From assembly GCA_019115805.1 (NCBI GenBank), contig DXCW01000207.1, forward strand, positions 1 to 53,486: a stretch of DNA of 53,486 nt. Direction: 5' to 3'. The notes beneath the pieces were generated by a model, which was not told where the DNA came from, did not search any database, and saw only the letters and a program-made list of their open reading frames with translations. The position numbers were made by a program, and so were the translations under genes. Positions within the stretch are counted from its first letter, which is position 1. Each line of letters opens with the position of its first letter. Origin of the DNA: Candidatus Sphingobacterium stercorigallinarum. Lineage in GTDB: Bacteria > Bacteroidota > Bacteroidia > Sphingobacteriales > Sphingobacteriaceae. Positions 5,291 to 16,207 of this stretch are shown here, piece by piece.

Positions 5291-5307
5291 TAAGTGATTG
5301 CTTACTT
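5291..5307. repeat. Inverted repeat 1 of cassette A (operator-like)
   Basis: TAAGTGA-TT-GCTTACTT, an imperfect palindrome resembling TetR-type operators. It sits 16 bp upstream of the -33 box of the promoter at 5324-5354. The same half-sites recur at 5383-5403 with a wider centre. Confidence 0.45.
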
Positions 5308-5323
5308 TTTTTTAAAAAACTTC

Positions 5324-5354
5324 TTGCAGATACTTTACTAAAGCTCTATGTTTG
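5324..5354 (+). promoter_or_regulatory. Promoter of candidate small RNA A
   Basis: TTG at 5324-5326, a 20-nt spacer, then TATGTTTG at 5347-5354: a full match to the Bacteroidota promoter form. It lies 270 bp upstream of rbfA and a terminator stands between them, so it does not obviously serve rbfA. Confidence 0.65.
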
Positions 5355-5382
5355 TGATGTAAAGGGGAATGAAAACCAGACG

Positions 5383-5403
5383 TAAGTGAGCATAAGCTTA
5401 CTT
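5383..5403. repeat. Inverted repeat 2 of cassette A
   Basis: TAAGTGA (5383-5389) and GCTTACTT (5396-5403) separated by 6 nt. These are the same half-sites as at 5291-5307, where they are 2 nt apart. It lies about 22 nt downstream of the predicted transcription start, so the two copies bracket the promoter. Confidence 0.5.
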
Positions 5404-5494
5404 ACAATAACCAACTAACTCTCTAAACATGATAGACCGGAAAGTCTTTAAACTTTGAACGAATTATACTATCCAATTATAAACTAGTTTGAGT

Positions 5495-5533
5495 AAAGAC
5501 TTGTCAGATTGCCCACGACAAGTCTTTTTTTTT
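5495..5533 (+). terminator. Rho-independent terminator of cassette A
   Basis: Perfect 11-bp stem AAAGACTTGTC / GACAAGTCTTT with an 11-nt loop, followed by a T run that ends at 5533. It separates cassette A from the rbfA promoter. Confidence 0.85.
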
Positions 5534-15880: not shown

Positions 15881-16025
15881 ATTTAAAAATTATCGCACTA
15901 AAGATTCCGCTGTTCAATTTTCCCCAAATGTAGCCAAACTTCTCTTTAAAAATCGCTCATGATTAATTCGATTTCGCCATTAATTTATCTGTTATCGCAA
16001 TAAAATCAGATTATTGTCAGAAATT

Positions 16026-16041
16026 AGTTGCAATCGCAACT
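16026..16041. repeat. Operator-like inverted repeat upstream of cassette B promoter
   Basis: AGTTGC-AATC-GCAACT, a perfect 6-bp dyad resembling MarR-type operators. It ends 15 bp before the -33 box at 16057, nearly the same offset as the inverted repeat of cassette A. Confidence 0.45.
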
Positions 16042-16056
16042 TTTAGTTTAAATTAC

Positions 16057-16087
16057 TTGCCAAATACCAAATCTCGACGTACATTTG
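16057..16087 (+). promoter_or_regulatory. Promoter of candidate small RNA B
   Basis: TTG at 16057-16059, a 20-nt spacer and TACATTTG at 16080-16087: the full Bacteroidota form, with the same spacing as cassette A. No gene lies downstream on this strand before the terminator at 16171-16207. Confidence 0.6.
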
Positions 16088-16093
16088 TAATGT

Positions 16094-16207
16094 GATCGGA
16101 GGGAATTAGTCCAGAGATCACATCTTAAAATTGTCTTTTCATAATTTAGGTTTATAATTGGTTAGTATCGAAAACCCTGGCGCCCATCGTCAGGGATTTT
16201 CTTTTTT
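16094..16207 (+). ncRNA. Candidate small RNA B
   Basis: About 114 nt between a full promoter and a terminator, with no usable reading frame on this strand. ATGTGATC / GATCACAT forms an 8-bp stem around an 18-nt loop; it begins at 16090, so its first bases may precede the transcript start. GTTTATAATTGGTTAGTAT at 16150-16168 is complementary at 18 of 19 positions to 5466-5484 in candidate RNA A. The gap from 15881 to 16211 (331 bp) holds no protein gene that I can support. On the opposite strand the same segment would be the 3' region of floA. Confidence 0.4.
16171..16207 (+). terminator. Terminator of cassette B, possibly bidirectional with floA
   Basis: CCCTG / CAGGG core with extra inner pairs and flanking AAAA/TTTT, then a T-rich tail ending at 16207. 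Read on the minus strand it also gives a stem followed by TTTT, so it may stop floA transcripts as well. Confidence 0.75.

Follow-up and report, generated by a model that had tools for sequence, protein, structure and literature searches.

Introduction

Sponge or anti-sRNA pairs are a known part of bacterial regulation. Within the Bacteroidota, small RNAs (sRNAs) beyond those of Bacteroides and Flavobacterium have been little explored. In Bacteroides, promoters of the primary sigma factor follow the consensus TTTG / TAnnTTTG, and the targets of the sRNA GibS have been determined experimentally (PMC7366714). In Flavobacterium psychrophilum, a transcriptome study revealed Rfp18, a structured intergenic sRNA present genus-wide, which affects metalloprotease mRNA levels (PMC9723704). 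A literature search found no RNA-seq or start-site data for Sphingobacterium.

Here, a 53,486-nt contig of Candidatus Sphingobacterium stercorigallinarum (DXCW01000207.1, hereafter the window) is shown to carry an intergenic unit, termed RNA A, that resembles both systems. As compared by description, RNA A is, like Rfp18, a genus-wide, intergenic, structured and non-coding element of the Bacteroidota, although it belongs to another genus and family and is known from sequence alone, whereas Rfp18 was seen in a transcriptome. It shares with GibS and other Bacteroides thetaiotaomicron sRNAs a primary-sigma promoter of the TTTG / TAnnTTTG type and an intrinsic terminator (PMC7366714), but no homology to GibS was seen via Rfam. 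The unit is very probably a free-standing intergenic sRNA gene of Sphingobacterium and Parapedobacter, encoding a transcript of ~171 nt, preceded by a probable site for a regulatory factor and likely to act in trans by base pairing.

Results and Discussion

Architecture of the unit - By direct reading, the unit at 5292-5533 comprises a dyad, a Bacteroidota promoter, a predicted transcript of ~171 nt and a terminator, all on the plus strand. The upstream repeat copy, TAAGTGATTGCTTACTT (5291-5307), holds the operator-like dyad AAGTGA-TTGC-TTACTT (5292-5307), which is centred near -61.5 relative to the predicted start and followed by a T/A tract reaching 5319. The -33 element TTG (5324-5326) lies 16 bp past this copy and is separated by a 20-nt spacer from the -7 element TATGTTTG (5347-5354), nearly invariant in the alignment as TAtgTTTG(T). 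With this spacer the promoter fits the Bacteroides consensus (PMC7366714). The predicted start, at ~5361, is 22 nt ahead of the second repeat copy, TAAGTGAGCATAAGCTTACTTA (5383-5404), which displays a wider spacer (AAGTGA-N8-TTACTT versus AAGTGA-N4-TTACTT upstream). A simple scanner missed both the promoter, since it models sigma-70 rather than the Bacteroidota type, and the terminator, whose loop of 11 exceeds the scanner limit of 8.

RNA A itself (5361-5531) is a predicted non-coding transcript, defined by its fold and its covariance model; it has no Rfam match and its ORFs are not conserved. It begins with a 5' hairpin, GTAAGTGAGC-ATAA-GCTTACTTAC (5382-5405), a 10-bp inverted repeat that an earlier note on this DNA had taken for a second operator and whose core stem is paired in most sequences. 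The conserved core, TGATAGAC-N6-GTCTTTAAACTTTG (5430-5457), was recognised in the alignment and by a pattern search of the genome collection, and contains a small AGAC/GTCT hairpin (5434-5437 with 5444-5447). Beyond it lie an unpaired, conserved stretch, CTATCCAATTATAAACT (5469-5485), which is complementary to a second sRNA-like unit, RNA B, described below, and the intrinsic terminator AAAGACTTGTC-N11-GACAAGTCTTT with its T-run (5495-5533), in which nine of the ten stem pairs have changed on both sides among relatives. The unit thus has its own promoter and intrinsic terminator within an intergenic region, as expected of an sRNA gene. Just two ORFs are present, encoding MKTRRK (6 codons) and MIDRKVFKL (9 codons). 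The parts listed in the earlier note (repeats, promoter and terminator) were all recovered within 1-2 bases, together with its two sole reading frames of 6 and 9 codons, and its distance of ~173 nt to the terminator agrees with the ~171 nt of the transcript defined here.

Conservation and distribution - A profile built from ten sequences located the unit in 36 of 36 genomes of the same genus, at full length in 35 and cut by a contig end in the remaining one. In BLAST searches with a 441-bp query, matches within the genus begin and end at the unit borders (approximately query positions 84-336), and the flanking DNA does not align among relatives. A covariance model, R1, matches 5359-5530 with an E-value of 1.1e-20, the window being one of the model's own sequences, and in a sample of the family it detected the unit in every Sphingobacterium and, more weakly, in Parapedobacter. 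A second covariance model recovered 35 of 35 Sphingobacterium genomes (E-values of 1e-7 to 6e-13) as well as Parapedobacter, where the layout is the same, and nothing convincing outside these two genera among 201 genomes of the family. Model matches in other genera were discarded as terminators, gene ends or RNA B. A search of 84,980 species genomes with the core pattern gave 56 stretches, and the records concerned were named only Sphingobacterium, Sphingobacteriaceae (one) or Parapedobacter; the sister genus was assigned to Parapedobacter by sequence match to named records. None of 4227 Rfam families matches RNA A at the gathering score, and a relaxed threshold gave only a chance-level match (E = 5). 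RNA A thus looks like a new, previously uncatalogued sRNA family with no Rfam counterpart. The earlier note had held that lack of conservation in close relatives would speak against its reading; when tested, the repeats, the promoter and the terminator proved to be kept genus-wide. At the sequence level, the conservation of RNA A, its promoter, its terminator and the absence of conserved coding are established. The note's suggestion of a regulated small RNA is supported by dyad, promoter, RNA core and terminator all being kept throughout the genus, with the regulation itself putative.

RNA structure - The fold energy of RNA A has a z-score of -2.66 relative to shuffled sequences, arising mainly from the terminator, which forms the main stem of the fold, and from the 5' repeat. 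Taken jointly, the three helices have 96.1% of cells paired, the shuffle value being 88.8%; cells in which both sides have changed number 65, compared with 18 in the shuffles. Sliding the partner by 1-3 columns lowers pairing to 27-56%. Most of the covariation signal comes from the terminator, which all full-length copies examined retain; helix 2 hardly varies within the alignment. The core of the 5' hairpin, GTGAG/CTYAC, is almost fixed and varies little, and its outer pairs compensate in some lineages, such as TGAGTAAG/CTTACTCA and AATGTGAGT/ACTCACATT. A further complementarity links AAGTCTTTA (5442-5450) to TAAAGACTT (5493-5501) at the start of the terminator stem; an alternative structure based on this pairing could form at the expense of the terminator. 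This complementarity is not kept in lineages with other terminator sequences.

The upstream dyad as a candidate DNA site - In 50 of 50 Sphingobacterium sequences fitting the strict dyad pattern, the dyad centre lies 46-47 bp ahead of the -7 box; nine other sequences, mostly from Parapedobacter, deviate from this pattern. The dyad takes the form AAGTRA-N4-TYACTT and all four R/Y combinations are seen, including AAGTAA..TCACTT, which would give an A-C mismatch in RNA. With an unvarying distance to the -7 box and a symmetric R/Y degeneracy, the upstream dyad behaves as a DNA site, unlike an RNA stem, and two DNA half-sites would be expected to give such degeneracy. The downstream repeat, which lies at a variable distance of 91-103 bp from the upstream dyad, appears to be mainly a transcribed RNA hairpin. 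Because of the different spacer and this variable distance, the two repeats are not a matched operator pair, and the variation in distance also led to the rejection of a DNA loop between two operators. The twin operators proposed in the earlier note are thus only half borne out, through the upstream copy.

The N8 form of the repeat occurs once in the 3.1-Mb genome and AAGTRA-N4-TYACTT in four places. In Parapedobacter, the aligned dyad form, GTRAGTGNNNACTYACTT, was found once per genome, at the RNA A promoter, in nine of nine genomes and gave no control matches. In Sphingobacterium, the strict dyad pattern with its T-run has few sites beyond the RNA A promoter, of which the one ahead of exbB recurs. 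The upstream dyad appears, from these searches, nearly private to the RNA A promoter. A dyad variant precedes the exbB ATG by 308-340 bp in 30 of 30 loci, which come from related genomes so that the counts are not independent; seven of these dyads are perfect, 22 have one mismatch and one has two. As read from the sequence, sui1, encoded on the same strand, ends a short way before the exbB-upstream dyad, and a terminator role is possible for this copy between sui1 and exbB. The ~330 bp ahead of exbB in Sphingobacterium contain the dyad with TTATTTTT and, ~30-65 bp after it, a block under strong conservation, TAATTTGCATATC(A)nATGGTTTTCATTG.

Alternative readings of the unit - The T-run directly after the dyad, and the position of the exbB copy just past sui1, would fit a terminator or terminal hairpin, belonging to a transcript from upstream or from the opposite strand, instead of an operator. 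This is unlikely, since no gene runs into the RNA A dyad, argH being divergent, since the A-C combination would be a mismatch in an RNA stem, and since the distance to the promoter is constant. The neighbouring genes bear on a different proposal, in which the unit acts in cis on rbfA, as its leader or attenuator, and transcription from 5361 enters that gene unless ended at 5533. In the window, rbfA lies on the same strand 91 bp past the T-run, and AAGTCTTTA could compete with the 5' arm of the terminator in the manner of an antiterminator. However, the distance varies, with rbfA mostly 150-420 nt past the core in Sphingobacterium and up to 1.7 kb in some genomes, the terminator is retained in all the full-length copies examined, and synteny comparison places no rbfA downstream of RNA A in Parapedobacter, although that genus conserves the RNA just as well. 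In both genera argH lies upstream and divergently oriented, in some cases with genes in between. The members thus do not share the same downstream gene, as those of a leader would, and RNA A is conserved as an independent unit that is not bound to one; the leader, rejected by the Parapedobacter synteny, is quite improbable.

A short coding gene was considered because the conserved ATGATAGAC...GTCTTAAAACTT would encode a peptide of the MIDxxVLKL type and the frame reads MID..VLKL in many sequences. Among relatives, however, ORF1 ranges from 2 to 30 codons and ORF2 from 4 to 42, with stops anywhere in the latter interval, whole clades have TTG or GTG as start codon, and third codon positions are no less invariant than the others. 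The spacing between AGAC and GTC is 4, 5, 6 or 7 bases, which breaks the reading frame and is tolerated by a hairpin loop. The peptide, rejected on these frame-breaking indels and variable stops, is a very improbable product, and the RNA A unit has no conserved coding capacity, as befits an sRNA. The same data bear on the other suggestion of the earlier note, a TetR-type autoregulated unit that has lost its gene body and kept promoter, operators and terminator. Two similar half-site pairs do bracket the promoter, and MKTRRK had been likened to a regulator N-terminus. Yet the gene-less layout is common to all genomes of the genus as well as to Parapedobacter, no relative examined has a regulator or other gene body between promoter and terminator, MKTRRK (ORF1) is not conserved, and the repeats differ in geometry (N4 versus N8, 91-103 bp apart). 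A conserved layout without a gene, combined with ORFs that are not conserved, leaves the deleted-gene explanation extremely improbable, and it was abandoned. A 6S RNA homologue lying outside the Rfam models would have a suitable length, and would fill a gap, as 6S RNA is absent from the annotation and neither 6S (RF00013) nor 6S-Flavo (RF01685) gave anything above cut-off in the Sphingobacterium genomes searched. RNA A nonetheless consists of three local hairpins with A-rich single strands rather than a long closing stem with a central bubble, and is limited to two genera where 6S would be expected family-wide. Given the lack of a model match and the wrong architecture, a 6S identity was rejected as highly improbable. 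The 6S RNA of the family of Sphingobacterium seems to be unannotated.

RNA B and its possible pairing with RNA A - A second sRNA-like unit, RNA B (16093-16207, plus strand), lies between kdsC and a flotillin-like gene, both named from their translations. Its -7 box, TACATTTG (16080-16087), is a perfect match, its 5' hairpin reads GTGATC..GATCAC and its own terminator, CCCTGGCGCCCATCGTCAGGG plus a T-run, ends near 16207. No Rfam match was found for RNA B. A dyad, GTTGCAATCGCAAC, is also present in the RNA B unit (16020-16207, plus strand). The last ~33 bases before the terminator are invariant in 12 genomes, while the 5' half differs. An RNA B-like 3' sequence was observed in another genus as well.

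Elsewhere in the window, the unpaired stretch CTATCCAATTATAAACT of RNA A has a single relative, located at 16151-16165 of the minus strand; the plus-strand form, AGGTTTATAATTGGTTAG, is inside RNA B, within the proposed pairing region (16148-16165). In 800 kb of S. mizutaii the motif was found at the RNA A and RNA B loci only, and CTAACCAATTATAAACC was accordingly rejected as a general leader of SusC/TonB-receptor mRNAs. The start-codon regions of the same 800 kb held no convincing match to the RNA B complement and yielded no mRNA target. Most changes of RNA A in 5469-5485 keep the pairing with RNA B through G-U pairs, as exemplified by CTAACCAATTGTGAATCGAAATT over 23 positions. One clade has CCACTT or CCATTT in the RNA A stretch, and its RNA B was not found within 400 kb around RNA A in three genomes. 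The ungapped complementarity score between both RNAs is 37; over 300 shuffles, scores averaged 21.8 and reached at most 39. The energy of the full-length duplex is no better than that of shuffles, probably because RNAs that are long and AT-rich can always form some bulged pairing. Pairing between RNA A and RNA B is put forward as a hypothesis. The two resemble sponge pairs in that each is a non-coding RNA predicted to be transcribed on its own and has, immediately ahead of its terminator, a conserved stretch complementary to that of the other, although the pairing is here predicted only. It is possible, if doubtful, that they form a conserved, mutually binding pair in which one is the sponge of the other, with a dedicated factor that would switch RNA A and control the exbB proton-channel operon as well.

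Proposed mechanism and significance - From the DNA we infer that RNA A is transcribed, regulated and engaged in pairing. It would be transcribed from a primary-sigma Bacteroidota promoter and end at the intrinsic terminator, giving an RNA made up of the 5' hairpin, the AGAC/GTCT hairpin, a single-stranded 3' segment and the terminator. A dyad near -61.5 occupies a classical position for an activator acting from upstream. A transcription factor most likely binds there and sets RNA A transcription, perhaps together with that of exbB; with the same element before exbB, the signal may concern TonB-dependent uptake. The most likely mode of action of RNA A is in trans, with the single-stranded 3' segment forming the base pairs, and RNA B, the sole candidate found, is a possible partner.

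RNA A represents a defined, single-copy, genus-wide RNA gene whose parts are mapped. With a nearly private control site common to exbB and a candidate RNA partner, the regulator, the signal and the target are each directly testable. If the proposed relationships are true, they would constitute an RNA-RNA circuit tied to TonB-dependent uptake in Sphingobacterium.
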